A program made the translations under genes and the position numbers. From an uncultured Fimbriimonadales bacterium (GTDB lineage: Bacteria; Armatimonadota; Fimbriimonadia; Fimbriimonadales; GBS-DC), in NCBI GenBank assembly GCA_937992175.1, contig CALKLF010000012.1:30622-94621 (forward strand): a DNA stretch of 64,000 bases, written 5' to 3'. How positions within the stretch are numbered: position 1 is the first letter of the stretch; every line of letters begins with the position of its first letter. Of the stretch, positions 9,111 through 44,270 are shown in pieces. The notes beneath the pieces are model-generated. The model did not search any database. It was not told where the DNA came from and worked only from the letters and a program-made list of their open reading frames with translations.

Positions 9111-9701
9111 TTATGGACGCACAGCGGGCAGCAATCGCTCGACATACCGCGCCAGAATATCGGTCTCGAGGTTCACGCGCTCGCCGATTTGCCGATGCGC
9201 GAGGTTTGTGACGGCCCAGGTATGAGGGATAATCCACACGGTGAACCAGTCTGAACCGGCCTCAACGACAGTGAGGCTGATTCCATCAATCGCTATCGAG
9301 CCTTTTGGTACGATATAGCGCATATACGCGGCGTTTTCCAGCTGCAATTTCAACACGCGCGCGTTGCCCTCCTCGCGTATCTCGATTAGACGCGCCGTCG
9401 TGTCCACATGTCCCTGCACGAAGTGCCCCCCGATGCGGCTCTCGGCTGTGAGCGGGCGCTCGAGGTTCACGCAATCGCCCGCTTTCAGGTCGCCCAGATT
9501 CGTGCGGCGCAGGGTTTCGGACACGGCGTCAAAGTAAAGCAGGTCGCCTTCCGCTCGCTGCACGGTCAGGCATACGCCGTTCACGGCGAGGCTCTCGCCC
9601 ACCGCCATCGGGAACGCACGTACGGCTATCCGCGCGCCCCCGTCAGAGTGGATTTGAATCGATTCCACAGCGCCGACCGCTTCGATAATGCCTGTGAACA
9701 T
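9111..9701 (-). CDS. ribE: Riboflavin synthase (alpha chain type)
   Basis: MFTGIIEAVGAVESI…GESLAVNGVCLTV…GGHFVQGHVDTTA…DGISLTV. Confidence 0.95.
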   Translation of the reverse strand: MFTGIIEAVGAVESIQIHSDGGARIAVRAFPMAVGESLAVNGVCLTVQRAEGDLLYFDAVSETLRRTNLGDLKAGDCVNLERPLTAESRIGGHFVQGHVDTTARLIEIREEGNARVLKLQLENAAYMRYIVPKGSIAIDGISLTVVEAGSDWFTVWIIPHTWAVTNLAHRQIGERVNLETDILARYVERLLPAVRP

Positions 9702-9726: not shown

Positions 9727-10722
9727 CTACAGCGCGGGCAACTCCATATCGCTACTGTGCCCTGGAAACATCTTCGCGTCGGGATCGATGACGCTTTTCG
9801 CATGATTAACCGCCGTGCAGACCTCCCCGACGCCCGTCGCGATGAGCTTCAGCTTGCCCGGATGCGTACATACATCCCCTGCCGCATAGACGCCTAGCAG
9901 GTTCGTCTGCATGTATTCATCCACCACAATCTGGTTGCCCTGCAGCTCGAGCCCCCAGTTCTTAATCGGTCCCAGCGTCGCCACGAAGCCGAGATTCAGA
10001 ATCACGGCGTCTACCTCGAGGGCGAGTTCCTCCTGCGTCTTGTTGTGGAAGATAATAGCCTGTTCCAGTTTGCCGTTGCCGCACACGCGGCGTACTTCAT
10101 AAGGGGTCAAAATCTTCACAGGCGACTCGCGTAGCTCCTGCACGCTCTGCTCGTGGGCGCGGAACTCGTCGCGGCGGTGAATCAGCGTGACTTCCTGCGC
10201 GACGGGATACAGGTTCAACGCCCAGTCGACCGCTGAGTCGCCGCCGCCGACAATCAGGAGACGCTTGCCGGCGAACATCGCCTTGTCGCGCACGCCGTAG
10301 TAGACGCCGTTGCCCTCGAACTCGGCGATTCCCTCGGCGTTCAGCTTGCGAGGGGAGAACGCGCCCGCTCCTGCGCAGATTACTATGGTACGCGTGCAGT
10401 GAAGTCCGCCTCTGTCGGTGAGAATCGTCCAGCCGTCGTCCATGCGTTGCAGGGTTTCGGCGCGTTCCTCGAGGCACACAGTCGGCTTGAAGCGCATTGC
10501 CTGCCGTATCATCTGCGCCGCGAGGTCTTTCGCCAGCACCTCAGGAAACCCCGGCATGTCGTACACATACTTTTCAGGATAGAGCGCGGCAAGCTGCCCC
10601 CCAAGTTCGGGCAGGCTGTCGATAATCTTGGTGCGCATGCCCCGCAAGCCCGCGTAGAACGCGCCGAACAACCCCACAGGACCGCCGCCGATAATCGTGA
10701 TGTCATACAACTCGGTGTGCAT
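9727..10722 (-). CDS. Thioredoxin reductase-like ferredoxin--NADP(+) reductase
   Basis: DITIIGGGPVGLFGAFYAGLRGMRTKIIDSLPELGGQLAALYPEKYVYDMPGFPEV; GGGDSAVDWALNL; YAAGDVCTHPGKLKLIATGVGE. Confidence 0.9.
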   Translation of the reverse strand: MHTELYDITIIGGGPVGLFGAFYAGLRGMRTKIIDSLPELGGQLAALYPEKYVYDMPGFPEVLAKDLAAQMIRQAMRFKPTVCLEERAETLQRMDDGWTILTDRGGLHCTRTIVICAGAGAFSPRKLNAEGIAEFEGNGVYYGVRDKAMFAGKRLLIVGGGDSAVDWALNLYPVAQEVTLIHRRDEFRAHEQSVQELRESPVKILTPYEVRRVCGNGKLEQAIIFHNKTQEELALEVDAVILNLGFVATLGPIKNWGLELQGNQIVVDEYMQTNLLGVYAAGDVCTHPGKLKLIATGVGEVCTAVNHAKSVIDPDAKMFPGHSSDMELPAL

Positions 10723-10756: not shown

Positions 10757-10768
10757 GGACTAAAGTCC
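10757..10768. promoter_or_regulatory. Palindrome ggactaaagtcc resembling the DevR/DosR box core
   Basis: attaGGACTAAAGTCCctaa; 11/12 copy GGACTAAAGTTC at 10835-10846. Confidence 0.45.
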
Positions 10769-10988: not shown

Positions 10989-12366
10989 ATATCATCTGAT
11001 ACTCGGCAGCGCTGAACACGATTTGCAGTGCGCCCTGCACGGTCTGGCGGTCGCGCTGGCGCAGGGCATTCGTTCCGCCGCGTTTCTCTAAATACTCCAG
11101 CAGGCTCTGGCGCGTACGAGGCTGCAGCGGCACATCCAGCGTGGTCTCTAAGCGTTGCACGAACTCGTGCAGCGTAGGCGGGGCAGGCAAGCCGACCAGC
11201 TCGTTCAGCGTCGCGAAGCCGACCCCGCGTCGGTCGGGCAGCATGAACTCCGCAAAGCGCATCCGCTCCAGCATCGTGGTGGAGCTAATCCAAGCCTTGC
11301 CCCACTCCCAGCCTGCGACATCGGGCGGATAGAGCAAGGACTGCCCCATACGACGCGTCCACTGCGTCGCTAGCCGCAGGTACGCTGCCAGCAGGCGTTG
11401 CCCTGCGCCGTCGCTCAGGTTCAACGCCCGCAGTCGCTCGCCAATGCCCACCTGGCGCAGTGTCCCCACCACAAACTCCACAGGGCTTTTCACCCGCTTA
11501 CGCCAGTTCAGGGGGCTCCAGAAGGCGGGTGTCAGCAGCAGGCGACGCATCAGCGCGCGTACACTGTAGCCCGACTCGCGAAAGACTTTCGCCAGCTCCT
11601 GTACCGTGCGCTCGTCAGGCGGCTCTACATCGTTGATAAAGTGCTGATAGAACTTACGTGCAAGGTGCAGTGCGGTTGCAGGATGCTCCACAGCCATCAC
11701 GATGATATCCTCACCGCCGAACCGTCCGCGCTTGCCGAACACCTCTTTCTCGCCATCGTCGTGCTGATTGCGATTGAACACGAAACTTGCTGTGACTCGG
11801 CTGAACGACCAGCCTGTGAACGCCCGCGCTGCCTCCTGGATGTCGCGCTCCGTGTAGTGACCGATGCCGAGCGTAAACAACTCGAACAGCTCGCGGGCGA
11901 AGTTCTCGTTCGGTTTGCCCTTCACATTGCGCACTCCGTCCAGCCATACCAGCATCGCAGGGTCTTTCGCGACCTCCAGCATGAGCGTCTTGAAGTTGTC
12001 CAGCCCCAGCCGCTGGAAGAGCTGAATCTGAATCAGCATCAGCCTGCCTGCCTGCACTTTAGAGGCGGATGTCGCGAAGTGGTTGTGCCAGAACAGCGCC
12101 ATCCGTTCCTGAACCGGCTGCTTCGAGACCAGCATACGATAGAGCCACCACGCACTCACTGCCTGCGGCTGCAGGTTGTTCATATCCCCTTGCAACAGGC
12201 GCAGCACAGCCTCATCATCGATCTCACTGTCGTAGGGGTTCCCCAGCACTTTATCGACCGCGCCCTCGATGCCCAACGGGATGAGCGATTCGATCTCGCT
12301 CGCTCGCGCACCGAAACCCGTGCGTCGGCGCAGGTGCGCCAAACGCTCTCTCAAACTCGATTGCAT
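10987..12366 (-). CDS. DUF1800 domain-containing protein
   Basis: LRRRTGFGARASEIE; ALFWHNHFATS; NENFARELFELFTLGIGHYTERDIQEAARAFTGW. Confidence 0.88.
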   Translation of the reverse strand: MQSSLRERLAHLRRRTGFGARASEIESLIPLGIEGAVDKVLGNPYDSEIDDEAVLRLLQGDMNNLQPQAVSAWWLYRMLVSKQPVQERMALFWHNHFATSASKVQAGRLMLIQIQLFQRLGLDNFKTLMLEVAKDPAMLVWLDGVRNVKGKPNENFARELFELFTLGIGHYTERDIQEAARAFTGWSFSRVTASFVFNRNQHDDGEKEVFGKRGRFGGEDIIVMAVEHPATALHLARKFYQHFINDVEPPDERTVQELAKVFRESGYSVRALMRRLLLTPAFWSPLNWRKRVKSPVEFVVGTLRQVGIGERLRALNLSDGAGQRLLAAYLRLATQWTRRMGQSLLYPPDVAGWEWGKAWISSTTMLERMRFAEFMLPDRRGVGFATLNELVGLPAPPTLHEFVQRLETTLDVPLQPRTRQSLLEYLEKRGGTNALRQRDRQTVQGALQIVFSAAEYQMI

Positions 12367-12528
12367 AGGACGATTGGTACCGATACTGACGATTCTGGGC
12401 AGGGAGTGGTTCACTTTCGACTGTCCTGTTTACACCCAGCGCGTTCGTCGGGTTTCGGAGCGGACGAGTATCGCGACGTGACTTGCCTCAAAGTGGGAGT
12501 TTCGTCAGGCGCGTCGAATGCCCTGCCT

Positions 12529-15087
12529 ATGTTTCGACCGTGGCTGACATCGATTGGCGTTGCGCTGGTGGGACTCTGGGCACAGGACGCGCCGCAGGGC
12601 GATTCGCGCCCCCTGCGTGACCCGCTGCGCCCGGTGATGGAAATCGGGCGTGATTATGTGGTGTTGCAATACCATACGAAAACGCCTACCGAGACGCGCG
12701 TGCAGATTCGCGCGGGCAACCTGCCGATGACGGCGTGGCGTCCGCCCGAGAAGCGCATCGACCTGTGGGCGAAGGCGCGGATTGTAAACGGCGAGACGGG
12801 CAAGCGCACTTATCATCGGATTCGAATTGCAGGGCTGAAACCCGGAACGCGCTACTACTATCGGATTTACGACCCCGACCATCAGCCGACGGGCGAGGAG
12901 CGTCGCTGGGGGGCAAGCCCGCCGTGGCGGCGTGAGTACGCCGTCGCCACGCTCGCCCCGCGCGGTTATAAGACCATCATCCGCCTGCCCGTGAAGGTGC
13001 TGCTGATGCCGAATGTAATCAATGTGGCGTCGGCGTACAAAGACCCTGCCAACCCCGCGCCGCCGCCCCTCAAAATGACCGACGCCGAGCTGCAGCGCAT
13101 CAAGGAGGAGTACGCTATCGCCGCGCGCTACTTCTGGGTGAACAGCGGGATGCGCTTCTGGGTGGACTTCCAGATTTTCGTTGACGACCGCTGGCAACGC
13201 TGGGGCGAGGAGCCTGCGGAGGCGTCAGGCTTCTACAAGGGTCTGCCTCCAAGCCGCGCATGGGCGGGCGTCGATTTCGCCGGACCGGGCGGCGGCGCGT
13301 TCACCATCGTCGACACGCGCGACATCACCCGCGCCGCCACCGAGCCGGTGTACGAGGAGCTGCCCTACGCGGGGCAGATCGAGCAGGCGTTCACCCGACG
13401 CTGGAACGCCGAGACGCGCCGCTGGGAGTATTACATCAGCGGCGGCGGCACGCTGGGCGTGGACGGCTTCCCCGACGGGGTTCCTGCACGGAGCCAGTAT
13501 CTGGGCGGGGGCGACACCGCATGGCTCGCCGCGCACGAGTTCCACCACCAGATGGAATCGTTCGGCGCGTTCTCGCTTGCGAATCGTGAGGACGAGCGCA
13601 TCGTATTCAATCACCCAGAGCCGCGCTACCGACGCAAGAACCCCGACGGCTCCGTCGCGATGAACCCGTGGAACACAGCAGGCAGGCACGGCGAACACTG
13701 GAATGTGATGGCGTTCTGGGATCGCCAGCTCAGCGACGCGCAGTGGCTACGGCTCTACTTTGGCGAGGCGATGATTGTGCGCGACGCCGACGGCGACGGC
13801 TTCCCCGACGACGACCCGCGCCTGCCCCTCGACGAGAAACGGTTCGGCTCCCACCCGCGCCGCGCTCAGACCGACGGACAGATGAACGACCTGCACAAGG
13901 CGATGTTCAGCACCTGGGCGCCTGCGCCCCTGCAAAACACCTTCGTCAAACCCGCGTGGCAGTCGCGCGTTCCCGACCCGCGCAAAACCGACCAGGACGG
14001 CGACGGCTTGTCCGATTCGGTAGACCCCTACCCGCTTTACCCATGGCAACCGTTCGTGTGGTACGCCCGCGCGACCGTCGACGGCGACGCCAGCGAGTGG
14101 CGCGACATCCCACCTGCAGGCGTGCTGGAGCAGGACGGGCTGAAAACGACGCTCAAACACTGCCACGATGAGGATTACTACTACGCGCTGTTCGAAATCA
14201 CGGGCGATTGGGACAGGCTCTACTCGGGCTTCGACGGCGAGGGACTGGGCGTTTTTTCGTCTGAGGCGGTCATCTGGTTCGAGGCGCGCAATCGGGGCGA
14301 GGTGGAGGCGCGCACGCTCTGGCGCGACGCGCCCGGCTTGCAGTGGAAGGCGTCCCGACGGCGCGACCGCACGACCGTGATCGAACTCAGCATCCCGAAC
14401 GGGGGCGAAAGCCGCTGGTTTTGGCGCGGCGGCGGACGCGAAATCGGCGTCTACGCCGACATTTTCAAGGCGAACGGAACGGGCTACTCCATCTATGAAC
14501 CCTACGATGTGTTCTACTGCATCATGAAAGAGCCGTCGGGGACGCTGCCGATGCCTGCGGGCGCGCCTGCCGAGCTGACGCGCGAAGCGGCGACGCGCGT
14601 GGTCACCCCCGCCCGCGCCGAGGGAGTGCAAATCGGCGCAGGCTGGACAGTTCGAGACGGCGCGTGGGCATACGACGGACACGAGGAGTCGCACATCCGC
14701 CTCACAGGGCTGAACGCAACCGAGTTCGACCTCTGGATCGAGCTGGAAGCCGTTCAGGACGGGATACTGGCGGCGTTCCTGCCCACCACCCAAGAGAGCG
14801 AGATGAGCGCAGGGCGCGACTATGTGCTGTTCGTGGGTGGCTACCTGAACACGCGCACGCGGTTTCGGATTTTCGGCGCAGAGACGGGCGAAAGCGCGCA
14901 GATGATCACGCCCGGACGCCACACCCTGCAACTCTCGCGCCGCGCGGGCAAACTCTGGGCGCTGTTCGACGGCAAGCCCATCCTCTCCGCCCGCGACCCG
15001 AACCCCACTCAGCCGATTGGGACGCTGGCGATTATCGGCGGCTACAGCGGGAAACAGCGCGTGTACGAAATCAGGGCGCGCTGGTAA
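12529..15087 (+). CDS. Secreted multidomain protein with possible zincin motif (AAHEFHHQ) and C-terminal CBM9-like region
   Basis: ATG 12529 inside ORF 11398..15087; LAAHEFHHQMESFG; VDGDASEWRDIP…YYYALFEITGDWD; DQDGDGLSDSVDPYPLYP. Confidence 0.7.
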   Translation: MFRPWLTSIGVALVGLWAQDAPQGDSRPLRDPLRPVMEIGRDYVVLQYHTKTPTETRVQIRAGNLPMTAWRPPEKRIDLWAKARIVNGETGKRTYHRIRIAGLKPGTRYYYRIYDPDHQPTGEERRWGASPPWRREYAVATLAPRGYKTIIRLPVKVLLMPNVINVASAYKDPANPAPPPLKMTDAELQRIKEEYAIAARYFWVNSGMRFWVDFQIFVDDRWQRWGEEPAEASGFYKGLPPSRAWAGVDFAGPGGGAFTIVDTRDITRAATEPVYEELPYAGQIEQAFTRRWNAETRRWEYYISGGGTLGVDGFPDGVPARSQYLGGGDTAWLAAHEFHHQMESFGAFSLANREDERIVFNHPEPRYRRKNPDGSVAMNPWNTAGRHGEHWNVMAFWDRQLSDAQWLRLYFGEAMIVRDADGDGFPDDDPRLPLDEKRFGSHPRRAQTDGQMNDLHKAMFSTWAPAPLQNTFVKPAWQSRVPDPRKTDQDGDGLSDSVDPYPLYPWQPFVWYARATVDGDASEWRDIPPAGVLEQDGLKTTLKHCHDEDYYYALFEITGDWDRLYSGFDGEGLGVFSSEAVIWFEARNRGEVEARTLWRDAPGLQWKASRRRDRTTVIELSIPNGGESRWFWRGGGREIGVYADIFKANGTGYSIYEPYDVFYCIMKEPSGTLPMPAGAPAELTREAATRVVTPARAEGVQIGAGWTVRDGAWAYDGHEESHIRLTGLNATEFDLWIELEAVQDGILAAFLPTTQESEMSAGRDYVLFVGGYLNTRTRFRIFGAETGESAQMITPGRHTLQLSRRAGKLWALFDGKPILSARDPNPTQPIGTLAIIGGYSGKQRVYEIRARW

Positions 15088-34051: not shown

Positions 34052-34387
34052 ATGCAACAGTCGACGAACAGCGCGGCGATCGCGAGCCTGGTGCTGGGGA
34101 TTGTGGCGATACTCACGCTGCTTTCATCGGGCATGTTCTTGGGATGTTTGCCAATCCCGCTAATCTGTGGGATTCTCGCATGGATTTTCGGCAAGAACGC
34201 CATGAGCCAGATTGACGCGGGGCTGGGCAACCCGAACGATCGGGGCATCGCGACGGCGGGCTATGTGATGGGGCTGATTACCGTCATCCTGTCCGTGCTG
34301 GGGCTGTGCTGTTTGATTGGCGCGCTGGCGGGGATTATCGGCGTTGGAATGTTTCCAGTATGGGAGAGCATGCGGTTCAATCTTTAG
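34052..34387 (+). CDS. DUF4190-like membrane protein
   Basis: TNSAAIASLVLGIVAILTLLSSGM…AWIFGKNAMSQIDAGLGNPNDRGIATAGYVMGLI. Confidence 0.8.
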   Translation: MQQSTNSAAIASLVLGIVAILTLLSSGMFLGCLPIPLICGILAWIFGKNAMSQIDAGLGNPNDRGIATAGYVMGLITVILSVLGLCCLIGALAGIIGVGMFPVWESMRFNL

Positions 34388-36924
34388 TCCACCCGATGCG
34401 CCGTCGCCCACACATAGCGGTAGGCGTCTAAGTTGCGCGGCTGCTTGCGTCCCTGTATAATGTCCAAATACAGCGTGGCGATTTCATAGGGGCGTACGGC
34501 GATGCGAATGCGGCTGAAAGGCATGCCGTCGGTATCGTGTTCCACAGCAAGCGTCTCGATTGGCTCGCCGAGCAGGTTTGTGCGAAACGCCGTCGCGATC
34601 TCGCCGCGCACGCACACCGTCGCCTCACACGCCGCGCCGTCCCACTCTACTAAACGCAACACAAAGGGAAACTCCATGCCCCGCCCTGCGTAGGAATCTA
34701 AGTGCATCCCTGCGAACCGCTCCGACTCGCGATAGAAGGCGGTAATGGCGACATTGGGGGCGTCGCACCAGACGGTGCGCCACTCGCTGGGCAAGTCGCC
34801 TGCTGAGTCGTCGCTGAGAGCCATAAGCGGAGGGCGTAGGAACTCCTGCGCCCGTCGCCATCGCTCGGCGTGGGAGAGTGTGCCGTGTGGAATCAGGCGC
34901 GTGCGCACTTCCAGCGTGTCCACGAAATAATCCTCATCCCAAGGGTCGTACATCGTGAGGATGTTGAGCAGGCGCGCGCCGTCCTTCAGGAACGCCTGAC
35001 TGCCGTTGTGGAGGTAGAGCAGTCCGCGTTCGCCGTCCGTGCAATCCAGCAGGCTCAGCGCTGTGAAGGGGTTGTGAACTTCCTCGAAGACTTGGGGGGA
35101 AGTCATCCAGTCGCCCGTGGGATACTTGCGCAGGTAAGTTCCTTTGGGTTGGATTTCGCTCACGCCGTAGGGGTGGTCGTGGGTGAGCGTGTAGCTGGGC
35201 AGGTTCGGCGCGAGGACGGTCTTGAGCGCGCCTGCAACGCTGCCGTCGGGACGCGCCAGCCCTGTTGCGCGATAGGAAATATCAACGGCGTCGCATTCGG
35301 GGGCAAGGGCGATGGTGAGTTCAATAACGCTTCCGTCGTGAGTGGCGCGGCGGAGAAGGATACCCTCACCCCCGTCCCCTCTCCCACGGCGTGGGAGAGG
35401 GGAGATGCGCGTTCCCCCCTCTCCCACGCCGTGGGAGAGGGGACAGGGGTGAGGGCGCACAATCTCCACCACTTGCTCAAACCGCTCCGTTAGCCCGCCA
35501 ATGCGCATCTCCAGCTGCCCTAGCGGTTCGGCTAACGCGCCCTCGGGAAACTCGGGGCTGTAAATCTGGTGGATGAGACCGCGCCGTTTGTCGATCTCCA
35601 CGCGCAGGTCGCCTCGCGCAAGGGTAAGCGCATCGTCGGTTTCGTGAAGACTGCATTCAGACGCAGGCGGCAGGGCGTCCCAATCGGAGTAAGTATGATA
35701 GCCCAGCGGCGGCAGGTTCTGGGCGAGCCGCGTGGTTCCGTCGGGGGCTTGCACTGCGCCGTCGCGAGTCCAGCCGAGCGGGTTGTAAATAAGAATCTGC
35801 CCTTGCGCACGCTTGGCGAAGTGGCGCAGCGTCCGCTCCACCACATGCCCACTGAGCGCGAGGCTGCGCTGATAGGAAGCCGCGCCCACGTGCCCGCAGA
35901 GTCCCTCGCACTCGTCGTTGTCGTGGTGCTGCGCGGCGAGCAGCTCGCGCCACGCCTCGTCCAGCTCCCACGCGGGGTACACATCCCAGTGCGGATAAGG
36001 TCGCCTGAACAGCCCCGCCGTTGCGGAGAGGCTCTCAGCGGTCAGTAGCTGCCGCTCGGCGGTGTGGCTATAGCGGCGGAACAGGTCGCCGTTCTTGCCC
36101 AGGCTCACGCCGTGAAACACCTCGCTGAGCGTGTAGCGGCGCGGCTGCGCCTGGTCGCGCGCCGCCTCCAGAAACTCCGAAAGCGTCGCGAAGCGCAGCT
36201 CAAACTCTGGGCGCGCCTTGAGCTGCCGTAGCGGCGGAATCATCAACTCGGCGCGGCACATCCAGTCGGGCGAGGGCATCAACTCCAGCCACTGCACGAT
36301 ACAGGGCGTCTCCATCGCGCGTAGGTCAGGGCTTTCCAGCAGCAGCATAAAGTCTTCGGGCCACTGGTGCAGGTTCAGCTTGTGGCGCGGCGCGGTCAGC
36401 AGGCGCGAGCCGTCCTGACCTTCCCACCAGACGGCGGGCGCGTCCTCAACAGGCATATGGGGTGTGTGCCATGTCCACTGATAGAACAAGCAGGCGTACT
36501 CGTAGCCTACGCCGCGCAACATCTGCGGCAGCTGCGGAAAGAAGTCGAACTCCTCCTCCCAGAAGGTGTGCGGGCGCACCCCCAGCAGGCGTATCACCGC
36601 ACGCACGCCGTACACACGTTGCCGAATGTTCGACTCGCCCCCATGAAATAAGCCGTAGGGCTGCCCGTAAGACGCGCCCACGATTTCAATCTGCCCCGCG
36701 CGAAGCGCATGCTTGAGCTCTTCCAGTACTTCAGGGGCTTCAGCAGCGAGGCGTTCGTAGCCTACCCCGTCGAAGTTCAGGTTGCCCTTTGCGCCCGTCT
36801 CACGGCAGAAGTGCAACATATCCCGCGCCGAGTCGGGCAGCACGCTGTAGCCCCACAGCCACTCCATATCGACCCAGTGCATGTGGTTGCCGAAGGTGTA
36901 GTAGAGTGGTTGTCGGGGTTCCAT
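34384..36924 (-). CDS. Glycoside hydrolase family 38 alpha-mannosidase-like protein
   Basis: YYTFGNHMHWVDMEWLWGY; FWEEEFDFFPQLPQML; AAQHHDNDECEG. Contains an in-frame repeat insertion. Confidence 0.85.
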   Translation of the reverse strand: MEPRQPLYYTFGNHMHWVDMEWLWGYSVLPDSARDMLHFCRETGAKGNLNFDGVGYERLAAEAPEVLEELKHALRAGQIEIVGASYGQPYGLFHGGESNIRQRVYGVRAVIRLLGVRPHTFWEEEFDFFPQLPQMLRGVGYEYACLFYQWTWHTPHMPVEDAPAVWWEGQDGSRLLTAPRHKLNLHQWPEDFMLLLESPDLRAMETPCIVQWLELMPSPDWMCRAELMIPPLRQLKARPEFELRFATLSEFLEAARDQAQPRRYTLSEVFHGVSLGKNGDLFRRYSHTAERQLLTAESLSATAGLFRRPYPHWDVYPAWELDEAWRELLAAQHHDNDECEGLCGHVGAASYQRSLALSGHVVERTLRHFAKRAQGQILIYNPLGWTRDGAVQAPDGTTRLAQNLPPLGYHTYSDWDALPPASECSLHETDDALTLARGDLRVEIDKRRGLIHQIYSPEFPEGALAEPLGQLEMRIGGLTERFEQVVEIVRPHPCPLSHGVGEGGTRISPLPRRGRGDGGEGILLRRATHDGSVIELTIALAPECDAVDISYRATGLARPDGSVAGALKTVLAPNLPSYTLTHDHPYGVSEIQPKGTYLRKYPTGDWMTSPQVFEEVHNPFTALSLLDCTDGERGLLYLHNGSQAFLKDGARLLNILTMYDPWDEDYFVDTLEVRTRLIPHGTLSHAERWRRAQEFLRPPLMALSDDSAGDLPSEWRTVWCDAPNVAITAFYRESERFAGMHLDSYAGRGMEFPFVLRLVEWDGAACEATVCVRGEIATAFRTNLLGEPIETLAVEHDTDGMPFSRIRIAVRPYEIATLYLDIIQGRKQPRNLDAYRYVWATAHRVD
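35363..35455. repeat. GC-rich hairpin repeat (ctctcccacggcgtgggagag) inside the GH38 gene
   Basis: ccctcacccccgtcccctctcccacggcgtgggagaggg…ctctcccacgccgtgggagaggggacaggggtgaggg; encodes HPCPLSHGVGEGGTRISPLPRRGRGDGGEG. Confidence 0.9.
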
Positions 36925-38248: not shown

Positions 38249-38809
38249 TCAGTTGTTCCATAAAATCGGTTCATCGTCCAGTTCGGGCGGTACGATTCGC
38301 TGGACAAGCCAGTAGGCGGGTATCGCTAAACCTATATTATACACCATGCTCCCCAGAGTTCCCTGCCAGAACGCGCCGCCTGAGACCGTTGGCGCGGCGA
38401 GGTAGAGCAGTCCCTGCGCAAGTAGGGTCAGCAAGATCACGGCGGGAACGACGCTGAGCCAGTGGCGTTTGGAGAGGAGCATCGGCAGGTAGGCGACGGC
38501 GGTCGCCGCGAGCGTGCGGCTAATCACCAGACTCCCTACTGTCTGTTCGAGCATGCTTGCGTGCAGCAGCCCTGTGAGAAAGCCTGCCCATGCTGCGGTG
38601 TTTGGGTTGGTCAGCAGCGCGATACACGCTAAGAGGAGCAGCGGGAAATCAGGCGTCACCGCTCCGATTCGCAGGCGATGCGCCCACACGCCCTGCGCCA
38701 CCGCCGCCGCCACAATCAGTAGCAGCCAGCGTAAAGCGCGCGCCCAGCCGCCCGACATCACAAACCGCGTGAGCCACGGGGGCTGCACACGCTCATAATC
38801 ATAGTGCAA
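38249..38809 (-). CDS. mreD: MreD-like rod shape-determining membrane protein
   Basis: Five/six-TM protein in the correct order and orientation downstream of mreB-mreC; AWAGFLTGLLHASMLEQTVGSLVISRTLAATAVAYL. Confidence 0.65.
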   Translation of the reverse strand: MHYDYERVQPPWLTRFVMSGGWARALRWLLLIVAAAVAQGVWAHRLRIGAVTPDFPLLLLACIALLTNPNTAAWAGFLTGLLHASMLEQTVGSLVISRTLAATAVAYLPMLLSKRHWLSVVPAVILLTLLAQGLLYLAAPTVSGGAFWQGTLGSMVYNIGLAIPAYWLVQRIVPPELDDEPILWNN

Positions 38810-38865: not shown

Positions 38866-38871
38866 TATAAT
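38866..38871 (+). promoter_or_regulatory. -10 box (TATAAT) 7 nt upstream of ATG 38879
   Basis: ggTATAATtgggcatATG. Confidence 0.6.
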
Positions 38872-38878
38872 TGGGCAT

Positions 38879-39706
38879 ATGCCAATCATCGAGACCGTTG
38901 AGCAACTCGTGGATTTTCTGGAGCAGAACGCCGAGTGGCGACACAGGCTGTTCGCCATTCTCGCGCCGCGCGCATTACGAAGGCTGCCCGAAGACTTCGA
39001 GGCATTTCGCGAAGAGACGAACCAACGGTTCAACCGCTTAGAGCGAAAGGTCGACGAAGGCTTTGAGCGCGTGGATCGTGAAATGCGCGAGGGCTTTGAG
39101 CGTGTGGATCGTGAGCTTGAAAATATGCGGGGTGAAACGCGCGCGGGCTTTGAGCGTGTGGATCGTGAGCTTGAAAATATGCGGGGTGAAATGCGCGAGG
39201 GCTTTGAGCGCGTGGATCGTGAAATGCGCGCGGGCTTTGAGCGTCAGGGCGCACAAATCAAACGCAACACCGACGACATCGCCCAACTCAAGGGACTCTC
39301 CTTAGAACACAAGTACCGCGAGCAAGCCCGCTCGTGGTTTAGCAAGTACCTCCGAAAGATACAGGTCGTCAGCTTAGCGGATTTAGAGGAGCGTCTGCCT
39401 GACGGGGTGGCGTTCTCCGACGAGGCGCGGGACGAGTTGAGCAACGCCGACCTGTTGCTGATTGGCACGGACAAGCGCACGGGGCGTGAGTGTGTGTATG
39501 TGATGGAGGTGTCGTGGGTGGTGGACGCGAGCGATGTGGAGCGTGCGGTGCGTCGGGCGCGTTGGTTGGCGGAGTATGGGTTTTGTGTGGCGGCGGTGGC
39601 GGCGGGATACGAGTTGGCGTCGGGCGCGGACGCTTTGGCGCAGCAGTTGGGGTGTGGGTTGCATATTGACGGTCGGTTCGTGAGTGAACCGAGGGTGCTG
39701 GAGTAG
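38879..39706 (+). CDS. Coiled-coil repeat protein with C-terminal PD-(D/E)XK-like domain (DUF3782-like)
   Basis: Tandem MREGFERVDRE / LENMRGETRAGFERVDRE repeats; ADLLLIGTDKRTGRECVYVMEVSWVVDASDVERAVRRARWL. Confidence 0.7.
   Translation: MPIIETVEQLVDFLEQNAEWRHRLFAILAPRALRRLPEDFEAFREETNQRFNRLERKVDEGFERVDREMREGFERVDRELENMRGETRAGFERVDRELENMRGEMREGFERVDREMRAGFERQGAQIKRNTDDIAQLKGLSLEHKYREQARSWFSKYLRKIQVVSLADLEERLPDGVAFSDEARDELSNADLLLIGTDKRTGRECVYVMEVSWVVDASDVERAVRRARWLAEYGFCVAAVAAGYELASGADALAQQLGCGLHIDGRFVSEPRVLE
39050..39245. repeat. In-gene tandem repeats (33-bp and 54-bp units)
   Basis: Near-identical gggctttgagcgtgtggatcgtgagcttgaaaatatgcggggtgaaa units. Confidence 0.85.
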
Positions 39707-39775
39707 TTGATTGTGGCTCCTGAAACTTAGTGCAGGTTCGAGGTACAATCAGTTCACTGCTTGGGGAGGCAGCCG

Positions 39776-40483
39776 ATGGCAAAGATACCTGAGGAGTGGT
39801 TGCAGCGCCTCACGCGCCTGTGCTTGGGTGCATGCGTGGCGCACGACGACGCCGAAACTTGCGCCTGCGATATTCTGCTGCGCTACCACCACCGACGCGG
39901 CGTATACCCGTGGGACGAGCCGACGCCTGATGAAAAGCTCCTGCGCCTGCTCGCACGCGATGTCATCGCGGAACACCTGCGCACGCTCGCCCGACGCCGC
40001 CGCTTGGAAGCCGAGTACTGCGCCTGCCTACAACACGCCCACGCCTGCGCCCCCACCCCAATGCAAATGGCGATTGAGAACGCCGACGCCGAGCGGTTCT
40101 ATGCCACGCTGCCGCCGTATCTGCGTCGGACTTTGGAGCTGCTGGACGGGGTATACACCCCTGCCGAGATTGCCGAGCATTTGGGAGTGAGTGTAAACAC
40201 AGTGTACGCCTATCAACAGGAGTTGCGCGTGCATTTCGTAAAATACTTCGACTATGACCCTAGAAATCGGGGGGGTCGTGTCGGTAATTATAGTGGAAGT
40301 GCCTCACAGGGGCTTCCGAGACCAACACAGGAGGTAACCGATGATGAGACGACGGCAGACGATACTGGGTATGATGGCGTTGTCGTTAGCGATAGCGAAC
40401 CTTGTGGCGATGCCCCACACGCTGGCGGCGTTGAGCGAGTTCAGCGGGGGGGGGGGGACAAGTCTGTCTCCCGTGACGAGTAG
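39776..40483 (+). CDS. Sigma-70-like/HTH regulator with unusual C-terminal extension
   Basis: MAKIPEEWLQRLTRLCLGACVAHDDAETCACDILLRY…LRRTLELLDGVYTPAEIAEHLGVSVNTVYAYQQELRVHF. Confidence 0.6.
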   Translation: MAKIPEEWLQRLTRLCLGACVAHDDAETCACDILLRYHHRRGVYPWDEPTPDEKLLRLLARDVIAEHLRTLARRRRLEAEYCACLQHAHACAPTPMQMAIENADAERFYATLPPYLRRTLELLDGVYTPAEIAEHLGVSVNTVYAYQQELRVHFVKYFDYDPRNRGGRVGNYSGSASQGLPRPTQEVTDDETTADDTGYDGVVVSDSEPCGDAPHAGGVERVQRGGGDKSVSRDE

Positions 40484-40949
40484 CAACGGCGGTTGCGGAT
40501 GCAGCCAGCCGAAGATGGAAGTGTCGCCTGAAAGGGTGAAGGAAGTGCTGAACTCGCACAGTGACTACGAGCCTGCTCAAAGAAGAAGACGACCTCCAGT
40601 TATTATATTCCCTCCGCGATTGCCAATACCGTGGCCACCAGGAGGTGGCGGGGGCGGCGGAGGAGGTGGGCAGCCTCCGTGCTTCTTGCCAGGATGCGTG
40701 CCAGATCCGAACAACCCCCACGACAAATTCCGCTGTAATACTTTCAACCTTCTTTGCCCCGGAACAGGGTTCAAGGACATCCAAAAGCGGCAAAAGTGGA
40801 TATACAATTGTCAGGGATTCCAGCTTGTCCACTGCAATGAATGGCAACATACTGGAATCTGCTGCCATCCCGCGTCCGATAGTCCTTGTGATGCAGGCGG
40901 ACCGAACCAGATACTGTGCGAGAGAGCTGGAGTTCCCTCAGCTCCGTGA
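40341..40949 (+). CDS. Secreted Cys-rich, Gly/Pro-tract protein
   Basis: aggaggtaaccg RBS; MMRRRQTILGMMALSLAIANLVAMPHTLAALSEFSGGGG…NGGCGCSQP…PPGGGGGGGGGGQPPCFLPGC…. Confidence 0.65.
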   Translation: MMRRRQTILGMMALSLAIANLVAMPHTLAALSEFSGGGGTSLSPVTSSNGGCGCSQPKMEVSPERVKEVLNSHSDYEPAQRRRRPPVIIFPPRLPIPWPPGGGGGGGGGGQPPCFLPGCVPDPNNPHDKFRCNTFNLLCPGTGFKDIQKRQKWIYNCQGFQLVHCNEWQHTGICCHPASDSPCDAGGPNQILCERAGVPSAP

Positions 40950-40962
40950 CTTTGGGACTCTT

Positions 40963-40990
40963 GTGGGGGAAAGCATCCTACTTCCCCCAC
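40963..40990. promoter_or_regulatory. 9-bp-stem hairpin between the Cys-rich gene and the prepilin gene
   Basis: gtgggggaa agcatcctac ttcccccac. Confidence 0.6.
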
Positions 40991-41011
40991 CCCCCAATCG
41001 GAGGTATAGCC

Positions 41012-41461
41012 ATGCGAAAGACTGCAGGTTTAACTTTGTTGGAGTTGCTGACGGTATTGGTAATCGTTGCCTTGCTGTCCGCTTTACTGCTGGCGGTGGT
41101 TTCCGAAGCGCGGAAGCGTTCTTACCGAACCGTGTGTACCAGCAACCTGCGTCAGCTGGTGGCGGCGGTGGTGATGTACCGCGAGGATTATGGGGAACTG
41201 CCGCACGCTCAGGTCTTAGCAGTTCCGTATGTAAAAGAGCACAACCTCTATGCCTGCCCTGCAGACCCCTTCCACACAGGCAGTGGCGCATCGGGGCTGG
41301 GACGGTACTGGGCGTGGGTCTACGGCTACCAGGTGGCAGTGAGTTACGAATACATCCGCGAGAACACTGAAGATAGTGAATACCTCCGCTTGGTCAAGGC
41401 AGATAGCAATTATGGCGTCTTTGTATGCCCGCTCCATGACAAATGCGACTGCAGGGGATAA
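41012..41461 (+). CDS. Prepilin-type N-terminal domain protein
   Basis: ggaggtatagcc RBS; MRKTAGLTLLELLTVLVIVALLSALLLAVVSEARKRSYRTVCTSNLRQLVAAVVMYREDYGELP. Confidence 0.8.
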   Translation: MRKTAGLTLLELLTVLVIVALLSALLLAVVSEARKRSYRTVCTSNLRQLVAAVVMYREDYGELPHAQVLAVPYVKEHNLYACPADPFHTGSGASGLGRYWAWVYGYQVAVSYEYIRENTEDSEYLRLVKADSNYGVFVCPLHDKCDCRG

Positions 41462-41664
41462 CGCCCGAATACGCTGCAGGGAAAGTTCACTGCTTAGATA
41501 GGGTTTTGCGCGCACGGATTGACGGAAGCGTGCAGTGGGTGAGAGTGCCGATGCGCTTTTTTATTTGCCGAGACGACGGCGCACCGACGGGCGCACGCGA
41601 TGGATGGCGTTTATTTACCGATGTACCCTGTCCACCTGATATCTGCGACGACACTGATTGTTGA
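41443..41664 (+). CDS. Overlapping ORF, possibly the frame-shifted C-terminus of the preceding prepilin-like protein
   Basis: GKVHCLDRVLRARIDGSVQWVRVPMRFF…CPPDICDDTDC; overlaps 41012..41461 by 19 nt. Confidence 0.5.
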   Translation: MRLQGITPEYAAGKVHCLDRVLRARIDGSVQWVRVPMRFFICRDDGAPTGARDGWRLFTDVPCPPDICDDTDC

Positions 41665-41672
41665 GGATAGCT

Positions 41673-42191
41673 ATGAAACAGCAGCTCTCCAGCGCACTGA
41701 CAGCGCATTTCGTAGGGTTCCTGCTGTCGCTTTTCGTACTTGCCCAAATCTTCGTCTTGGGGATGGGTGTGTTAGCCACGATTCTGTATTGGGGGAACTT
41801 CGAGGGGATGCGAGAAAATGTGTCGCTTAGCGAAATCTGGGCGCAAGTCGTCTCCCCCACGAGTGGACTGACATTCGTCGGAAAGACATATCCTTGGGGG
41901 CTGCTCATCTGGCTCGCAGGTGGCTTGTTGGTAGGCGGGCTATGCGCAGTGATTCCCAGTGAAAAGACCCAGAGGCGAGTGCGCTTTGCCGTGAGCGTTT
42001 TCACAGGATTTGGAGTGAGTCTCGCCATGAATGGCATGTCATCCAATAATTCGGGTGTCGTGGTCGCGAACCTTTTAGGAACCGCATTGACTGTGGCTGC
42101 GTTTTACTTAGCGGTTGTCCTATCGCGCTGGCTGCCCAAGTTTTATGAGTGGCTTCGGGATACGGAGGTGAGCGCGCTCTTCCGTCGCTAA
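41673..42191 (+). CDS. Hypothetical integral membrane protein
   Basis: MKQQLSSALTAHFVGFLLSLFVLAQIFVLGMGVLATILYW… several TM segments. Confidence 0.7.
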   Translation: MKQQLSSALTAHFVGFLLSLFVLAQIFVLGMGVLATILYWGNFEGMRENVSLSEIWAQVVSPTSGLTFVGKTYPWGLLIWLAGGLLVGGLCAVIPSEKTQRRVRFAVSVFTGFGVSLAMNGMSSNNSGVVVANLLGTALTVAAFYLAVVLSRWLPKFYEWLRDTEVSALFRR

Positions 42192-42208
42192 CTCGATGGT
42201 AGTTCAAG

Positions 42209-42340
42209 ATGGAAGTGCGTAACAGCTCTGCCGAGATTGCTGAGCGTTTGGGAGTTGGCGTGAACACGGTGTATATTTACTCCAGAGACGGCAACGCAGC
42301 AATCTTTGTGGGAGAGTGCGAGTACCTTCCCAGTGCGCTA
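42209..42340 (+). pseudogene. Remnant of a second sigma-like HTH gene
   Basis: SSAEIAERLGVGVNTVYIYSRD resembles PAEIAEHLGVSVNTVYAYQQE of 39776..40483, also at the DNA level. Confidence 0.65.
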
Positions 42341-42399
42341 CCCCACCGAGAGGCTCCCAATGCAAAGCGTCCTGATGACAATATGAGCAAGGATATGGT

Positions 42400-43209
42400 T
42401 CACCGTCCGCGTTTGACCAGCGCGACGCTGAGCTGCTCGAAATCGACGGCGGGGCGCACCCACGCCTTTTTCACGGAGTATTGCCGGTCGAGCCAGACGC
42501 GCTCCACGACGCCTACAGGCAGGTTCTGGGGATACTTGCCGCCCAGCCCTGCGGTGACAACCCTGTCGCCGGGCTGGAGGGGGGCTTCGGGCGGGATGAA
42601 GTTGAGCAGGAGCAGGCTCTCGCCGCGCCCTTCGCACACGCCCGTGCTGGCTTTCTGCGCGTTTAGCACCTTCACGCTGACCGCCATGCGCGGCGCAACG
42701 AGCATACGCACAACCGCCGCGTTCGGGTCGGCATGTTCCACAACGCCAATCAGTCCTTCACCAGCCACCACAGGCGCACCCGCCAGCACCCCATCCCGCG
42801 CACCGCGATCGATAATCAGCGTCTGCTGCCCCGGTTGCGGATAACTCGCTATCACCCGACAACCGATCCATTCGTGGGGCAGGTGCGGGCGCAGGCTGAG
42901 CAGCTGGCGCAACGACTCGTTCTCGGTCTCCACGAGGCGCAAGCGTTCCAACTCCTGCTTCAGGTAGGCGTTCTCGATCGCTAACTGGTCGTGCTCGCGC
43001 AACACTGCGCGAGCGTGCGTCAGCGTCGTGAAAAACTGTTCTGTCGTCGCAGTCGCCGCGTACACGCCACGCTGCATGGAGAGGATTATCCCCCGAATCA
43101 AGGCGGTGATGGGGTTCACCTCGCCGTAATGCACACGCTGATTATGATAGACGCCCAGCGCTAGCCCCAGCGCCGCCAGAATCAGCCATGTCCAGCGACG
43201 GCGTTTCAT
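42400..43209 (-). CDS. mreC: Rod shape-determining protein MreC
   Basis: VYHNQRVHYGEVNPITALIRGIILSMQRG…VIASYPQPGQQTLIIDRGARDGVLAGAPVVAGEGLIGVVEH. Confidence 0.9.
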   Translation of the reverse strand: MKRRRWTWLILAALGLALGVYHNQRVHYGEVNPITALIRGIILSMQRGVYAATATTEQFFTTLTHARAVLREHDQLAIENAYLKQELERLRLVETENESLRQLLSLRPHLPHEWIGCRVIASYPQPGQQTLIIDRGARDGVLAGAPVVAGEGLIGVVEHADPNAAVVRMLVAPRMAVSVKVLNAQKASTGVCEGRGESLLLLNFIPPEAPLQPGDRVVTAGLGGKYPQNLPVGVVERVWLDRQYSVKKAWVRPAVDFEQLSVALVKRGR

Positions 43210-43214
43210 GGGCG

Positions 43215-44270
43215 TCACCTCTTGCGCGGCGACTGCGCCGTCTGCAGCACCTTGCGCAGCATCGGGTTGCTGTCCAGTTCCTCCAGCACCTTGCCTGTGC
43301 CCAGCACTACCGCCGAGGTCGGGTCGCTGGCGACATAGACGGGCATCTGCGTTTCGTGCTGGAGCAGTTTATCCAGCCCGCGCAGCAACCCGCCGCCGCC
43401 GCACAGCACGATGCCATAGTTCATGATGTCCGCCGCGAGTTCGGGCGGCGTAATCTCCAGCGTCTGCTTCACGGCTTCCACAATCGCGTTCACTGGCTCC
43501 GAGATAGCCTGACGAATCTCTTCGGAGGTAATCCGCACGCTGCGGGGCAATCCGCTAATCAGGTCGCGCCCCTTGACCTCCAGCTCCAGCTCCTCTTCCA
43601 GCGGGAACGCCGAGCCGATTTCGATCTTCACCTGCTCGGCGGTACGCTCACCAATGAACAGGTTGTAGGTACGGCGCACATAGTTGGCGATGGCTTCATC
43701 GATTTCGTCGCCGGCGATGCGTATCGAGCGGCTGGCGACGATGCCCGCCAGCGAGATGACCGCCACTTCCGTCGTGCCGCCGCCGATGTCCACGACCATC
43801 GACCCCGTCGGCTCCACGACGGGCAGCCCGACGCCAATCGCCGCCGCCATCGGCTCTTCGATCACATAGGCTTCGCGTGCGCCCGCGCGCATCGCCGCCT
43901 GCAGCACGGCGCGCCGCTCCACCTCCGTCACCCCGCTGGGGATGCCCACCACCATGCGCGGCGGGATCCAGCGATGGCGCGAGACCTTGCTGGCGTAGTA
44001 TTGCAGCATCTTCTCGGTCTGCTCGAAGTCGGCAATCACGCCGTCCTTGAGCGGGCGCACGGCGATAATATTGGCGGGCGTGCGCCCCAGCATCCGCTTC
44101 GCCTCCTCACCTACCGCCAGCACCTTGCGCGTGTCCTGGTCGATTGCGATCACCGACGGCTCGCGCAACATAATCCCCTTGCCGCGCACATGTACCAGGG
44201 TCGTCGCCGTGCCGAGATCAATTCCCAGATCGCGCCCAAACCTTCCGAACAGTTTTGAAACGAAAAACAC
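43215..44270 (-). CDS. mreB: Rod shape-determining protein MreB
   Basis: [67 protein letters not shown]. Confidence 0.97.

Follow-up and report, generated by a model that had tools for sequence, protein, structure and literature searches.

Sequence analysis of a 64,000-nucleotide window from an uncultured Fimbriimonadales bacterium (assembly GCA_937992175.1, contig CALKLF010000012.1, positions 30,622 to 94,621 of the forward strand) revealed, between mreC and mreD, two plus-strand open reading frames (ORFs) which overlap in different frames and share a run of 12 guanines (G12). The first encodes a sigma-factor-like protein and the second a cysteine-rich (Cys-rich) secreted protein, and they belong to a recurrent gene cassette. 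The tract and the frame logic around it constitute our main finding; the recurrence of the cassette, the overlap, the position of the tract, its variation in length and the frame that is joined at each length are all read directly from the sequences. We consider it probable that the tract is a slipped-strand contingency switch for a surface cassette, its length determining which of the two overlapping ORFs upstream is used.

The sigma-like ORF, which we term frame A, extends over positions 39776-40483 of the window (plus strand), with the sigma domains at about 39776-40270. Its tail crosses the signal-peptide region of the secreted protein and runs into the poly-G tract (40446-40457, plus strand) and, at the G12 length of the window, it stops seven codons past the tract. 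The Cys-rich ORF (40341-40949) overlaps it by 143 bases. The strong ribosome-binding site of the secreted protein, AGGAGGT (40329-40335, plus strand), lies within the sigma reading frame and is followed by an ATG; this site and the signal peptide had both been predicted earlier from the sequence and were confirmed. The signal peptide, MMRRRQTILGMMALSLAIANLVAMPHTLAALSEFS, is encoded at 40341-40445 (plus strand) in frame B, equivalent to the sigma frame minus one, and this relative frame was found in 12 of 13 loci. At G12 it is joined to frame C, the mature Cys-rich and Gly/Pro-rich secreted domain (40458-40949, plus strand). Tracts occupy the same position in relatives, where they range from G9 to G15.

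The three frames entering and the three frames leaving the tract were read at each locus carrying both a sigma-like gene and a tract. In 12 loci frame A is open up to the tract, frame B is open too, and the third frame is closed within 1-10 codons. The start codon of frame B usually follows GGAGG, a Shine-Dalgarno-like site being present in most of the 12, and in the loci of the Cys-rich type frame B corresponds to the signal peptide. Downstream of the tract a single frame, C, is long, and the tract length modulo three sets which upstream frame joins it. This layout spans several genera and unrelated payloads. Among 16 loci, the leader frame B is joined in four (the window with G12, L033 with G15, L127 with G10 and L131 with G12), the sigma frame A in six (L037 and L130 with G11, L043 and L050 with G10, L052 with G13 and L132 with G12) and neither in the remaining six (L033 with G10, L035, L042 and L048 with G9, L036 with G12 and L123 with G11).

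Closely related copies differ in tract length. Loci L123 and L127, from two genomes, share 400 + 400 identical flanking bases and carry G11 and G10, respectively, and their registers differ. Two further near-identical pairs, L124/L135 and L129/L138, also have unlike tract lengths. Two features expected of a contingency locus are present, namely a coding homopolymer longer than chance would give and a conserved position with variable length among relatives. Moreover, loci L130 and L132, both at about 320-336 kb of contig G004:C3, are identical in 400 of 400 upstream bases and carry unrelated payloads, Big_1-like and PKD-like, which suggests that payloads are exchanged at the tract and that it may also serve as a recombination point.

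The G12 run is the only one in the window, where 0 of 100 dinucleotide shuffles produced its equal, and it is the longest G run in the draft genome of 2.83 Mb (133 contigs). Seven other runs of at least G9 in this genome lie in intergenic repeats or at unrelated places, none of them at junctions of sigma or secreted-protein genes. In 296 kb of related loci, mostly fetched for holding sigma relatives, all 12 runs of at least G9 occur where a sigma-like or leader frame ends. An unselected scan of 18 genomes yielded about a hundred runs of at least G10, and in the single-contig genome G010 all four such runs lie in or beside sigma or secreted-protein genes. Among 82 distinct runs, a set that includes loci selected for sigma relatives, a sigma-like frame runs into 14 on the sense strand and into none on the antisense strand. 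Other runs fall inside genes for large secreted proteins or immediately ahead of them (RHS-like with DUF6531, Big_1/invasin-like, PKD and kelch/glyoxal-oxidase-like), and some tracts lie just upstream of sigma-70-family-like genes (L094, L096, L103, L143, L146, L147, L157 and L158), of which that in L143 passes TIGR02937. Most of these eight tracts stand behind a short leader containing ARRATMP or a similar sequence. At two loci from different genera, L184 (G010:C1:507638, G11) and L186 (G014:C4:313, G9), the tract separates the half of the sigma gene that encodes region 2 from the half that encodes region 4, and there the sigma factor itself may be phase variable.

The proposal of a sigma-like regulator at 39776-40483 was upheld by profile comparison, and it resembles the extracytoplasmic function (ECF) type. 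A profile of the family aligns to residues 6-162 of Mycobacterium tuberculosis SigE, covering both sigma regions (E=2e-14), and Sigma70_r4_2 was found in 13 of 15 family members. The window protein alone falls below the curated cut-offs of TIGR02937 and Sigma70_r4_2 and is therefore regarded, on the strength of the profile alignment, as a divergent ECF-type member. Its structure model is helical, with a predicted local distance difference test score (pLDDT) of 90.5 but a predicted template modelling score of only 0.54; the top Foldseek matches are ECF sigma factors with probability 1.00, the best E value being 1.7e-3 (none below 0.001), a result that agrees with the assignment and is not decisive alone. 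Named relatives carrying the gene are metagenome-assembled Fimbriimonadales (KatS3mg016, SKW266 and R1_Bin isolates), MAG_7 and HRbin16. A phage origin was considered and rejected, with no relative of the protein found in viral contigs. The remnant of a second sigma gene, a helix-turn-helix fragment, is located at 42209-42290 (plus strand), with 53% identity to sigma residues 130-162 (E=4e-4).

In the proposed mechanism, the sigma frame is open up to the tract, and the ribosome-binding site, start codon and signal peptide nested in its tail lie one frame back. Frames A and B both enter the tract and, beyond it, a single frame goes on as the mature secreted domain, such that slippage by one G would pick among three products. 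At G12, as in the window, the product would be the secreted Cys-rich protein, with the sigma-like protein ending in a short tail. A second length would yield a sigma-like protein extended at its C terminus by the Cys-rich domain and leave the signal peptide as a dead-end peptide and, at the third, neither frame would be joined to the domain. Tract length would presumably switch within a population, and the switch predicts mixed tract lengths within existing sequence reads and a defined product for each length. The products would be components or decorations of a pilus-like structure at the cell surface, assembled by the general type IV pilus or type II apparatus, and the sigma-like protein could transcribe its own cassette. 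A stronger version, to which we lend only tentative credence and which we judge rather unlikely, is a genuine three-way selector in which the surface domain is either secreted or fused to the ECF-like sigma factor, a single slippage event thereby altering both surface and regulator. It would provide, for example, a tethered or sensor-fused sigma factor in one state and a free one in the other.

Other explanations of the layout have been weighed. Transcriptional or ribosomal slippage at the G run would generate all three products at once from one DNA, with no genetic switching, and it would employ the same layout and tract; the occurrence of three registers in close loci would then be tolerable, if slippage supplies the product. 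However, loci whose flanks are identical differ in tract length, as DNA slippage predicts, and in L040 an interrupted tract has the signal peptide joined, as though the locus were fixed in one register, and we regard this explanation as improbable. Quite improbable too, in our estimate, is a neutral glycine linker which drifts in length, the sigma overlap being incidental and the out-of-register copies pseudogenes. Several copies are indeed out of register, the window prepilin gene is frameshifted and decay of the cassette is evident both in the sigma remnant at 42209-42290 and in the remnant of the Cys-rich gene in L005. Nevertheless, the tract consists of GGG codons only, whereas the Gly run of the mature domain is encoded by mixed codons, the same layout is found with unrelated payloads, tracts occur both before and after signal peptides, and the third frame is closed beside the tract in 12 of 12 loci. 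It is very hard to believe that the G runs are merely false products of metagenome assembly: although tracts of at least G10 at some contig ends (G012:C34 and G008:C116) do look artefactual, the same internal position recurs in genomes assembled independently by different projects, and comparable tracts occur in a single-contig genome with conserved coding sequence on both sides.

For the slipped-strand switch itself, several observations weigh on the opposite side. Long G runs can be miscounted by short-read assemblies. The loci share ancestry and thus do not count as independent, and possession of sigma relatives was the criterion for the first set; the register counts are descriptive. One locus of the 13, L048, is an exception in that sigma gene and signal peptide lie in the same frame, and copies without a tract exist (L005, L038 and the first sigma gene of L033), so the family can do without the switch. 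The idea of a family with unusually many G tracts was rejected, since other families of the order show similar counts; G10 or longer tracts are no commoner in the family than in the rest of the order and, therefore, the argument rests on the position of the tracts and not on their number. No sigma-dependent promoter was identified. Finally, the prepilin frameshift and the sigma remnant indicate either decay or assembly error, and the copy in the window may have undergone partial decay.

The block represents one occurrence of a recurrent cassette which, judging from comparisons of predicted proteins, consists of a sigma-like regulator, a Cys-rich secreted protein, a small membrane protein and a pseudopilin. 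Searches with the window proteins against related loci (tblastn) located the sigma-like gene followed by the Cys-rich gene and prepilins, and ORF listing added to the set a membrane protein of 160-198 residues. The full set recurs within the same family of the order Fimbriimonadales, at unrelated places and not as random singletons. It occurs twice in tandem in L033, the first cassette having the Cys-rich gene at 9593, the membrane gene at 10208 and the prepilin gene at 10761, and the second having sigma at 11830, Cys-rich at 12516, membrane at 13103 and prepilin at 13618. All four genes are present in L035, L040 carries the order Cys-rich gene, prepilin, membrane gene, prepilin, and L048 has a similar cassette that is partly broken. 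A paralogue within the window's own genome (L005, contig C61) retains the sigma gene, a Cys-rich gene cut down to a leader remnant and an intact prepilin gene. The cassette is real and recurrent, and of the two findings named beforehand as counting against the original proposal, dispersed singletons or a gene other than mreD at 38249-38809, neither was made. The prediction of a self-contained surface or secretion system is thus supported in part: a complete secretion system is not encoded, a coiled-coil gene that had been included falls outside the set, and the overlap and frame selection by the poly-G tract had been overlooked.

Two of the cassette genes in the window correspond only in part to what had been proposed. 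The prepilin-like gene (41012-41461, plus strand, encoding the N-terminal 149 codons) has the N-methylation motif, scoring 21.9 bits against PF07963 (cut-off 21.2) and 18.3 bits against TIGR02532 (cut-off 16.3), but its reading frame is not intact: it breaks near 41453-41456 (L106) and the C-terminal part is read in a different frame up to about 41664. The break, which coincides with a run of four Gs (GGGG), could reflect either a genuine mutation or faulty assembly; intact homologues are present in L005, L033, L035 and L040. The prepilins would have to rely on a type IV pilus or type II secretion apparatus encoded elsewhere, and this genome contains three long ATPase matches to T2SSE. The small multi-transmembrane protein (41658-42191, plus strand, ATG at 41673) is a member of the cassette by position, and a membrane protein of similar size recurs in the set, with a 34% match in L048, but the window protein showed no family match above threshold and its sequence is weakly conserved. 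Cassette membrane proteins are only 14-26% identical to that of the window and we conclude, from these alignments, that this member is kept in position more than in sequence.

The mature Cys-rich domain yielded no Pfam or NCBIfam match above threshold, its structure model (pLDDT 45) is too low in confidence for use, and a DNA search of this genome with the leader turned up no other copy with a useful score. In the sigma tail, at 40289-40317 (plus strand), TATAGT followed by a short hairpin GGAAG...CTTCC is a weak candidate for a promoter and 5' stem-loop of the secreted gene. Alignment and RNAalifold analysis of nine loci gave six pairs, one two-sided compensatory change and -2.4 kcal/mol and, although partly conserved, the RNA hairpin was set aside as weak given the single compensatory pair.

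The flanks of the block are as originally described. Family matches confirmed mreB (43215-44270, MreB_Mbl E=5e-147) and mreC (42400-43218, PF04085 E=1.7e-36) in order on the minus strand, and the plus-strand genes between mreC and mreD do exist. The opposite flank, 38249-38809 (minus strand), is mreD: it scores 35.0 bits against TIGR03426 (cut-off 34.85) and shows synteny with mreC and gdh in relatives. Among 18 genomes of the same family, mreC and mreD adjoin, with a spacing of about 15-150 bases, in six (G004, G006, G013, G014, G015 and G017), and the spacing is variable elsewhere. The gap is about 0.4-1 kb in G007, G002, G010 and G016, the two genes are on no common fetched stretch in G008, G009, G011, G012, G001 and G005, and mreC was not found in G003. 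On this comparison the junction appears to be labile and not the site of a single simple interruption. An ORF of 109-112 residues lies in the gap in both G010 (L166) and G007 (L169), with an additional 212-residue ORF of nucleotidyltransferase appearance in the former, and the same junction is therefore used by other inserts. In G001 and G005 (L164 and L165), opposite-strand genes beside mreC resemble, by sequence appearance, type IV pilus ATPases, PilC and prepilin peptidase.

The coiled-coil protein (38879-39706, plus strand) had been labelled PD-(D/E)XK-like, a label that is not sustained, as profile searches detected no such family above threshold. No coiled-coil gene intervenes between mreD and the sigma gene in G011, G009 and G003 (loci L037, L039 and L041), where the two are about 95 bases apart, such that the sigma-mreD linkage is common to four genomes including that of the window. 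A 93% match was found in G011 on another contig, and copies of this multi-copy family are dispersed. For these reasons the gene was rejected as a cassette member, and its presence would reflect either insertion in the window genome or loss in the three relatives. Elsewhere in the window, an 846-residue ORF (34384-36924, minus strand) contains an in-frame stretch, PHPCPLSHGVGEGGTRISPLPRRGRGDGGEG (about 35200-35500), similar to the intergenic repeats of this genome (L005).

Host-associated bacteria, among them Campylobacter, Helicobacter and Neisseria, are well known to carry poly-G contingency loci, at which the usual outcome is the on/off switching of one gene. The loci described here resemble them in having pure runs of about 9-15 Gs in genes for surface or secreted proteins, with length setting the frame, but they differ in that two overlapping upstream ORFs, one of them sigma-like, compete for the downstream frame. 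C-terminal extensions are also known in ECF sigma factors, and the sigma-joined ORFs would similarly carry a C-terminal domain, sometimes predicted to cross the membrane (L130, L132 and L052); unlike in those proteins, tract length would here attach or remove the extension. A full-text literature search combining terms beginning with Armatimonad with phase variation produced no match, although its coverage is incomplete and wording varies. If correct, the switch would extend contingency loci to the little-studied uncultured Fimbriimonadales and add a mode beyond on/off, namely the choice of the upstream gene to which a surface domain is attached.

Within the class Fimbriimonadia, the genome paper of Fimbriimonas ginsengisoli likewise reports many pseudopilin and RpoE-type sigma genes, with 79 PulG-like and 30 rpoE genes, and a search of its text yielded no mention of homopolymers or phase variation (PMC4072686). 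The nearest precedent is the C-terminal switching proposed for Helicobacter canadensis, in which a 3' poly-G tract may merge the neighbours HCAN_0660 and HCAN_0661, an arrangement its authors considered perhaps unprecedented (PMC2823697). In both cases the tract would decide whether proteins are separate or joined. The H. canadensis example, however, involves two hypothetical proteins at one locus, whereas a dozen loci share the Fimbriimonadales arrangement, in which the first gene encodes a sigma-like factor and also contains a rival start leading into a signal peptide.

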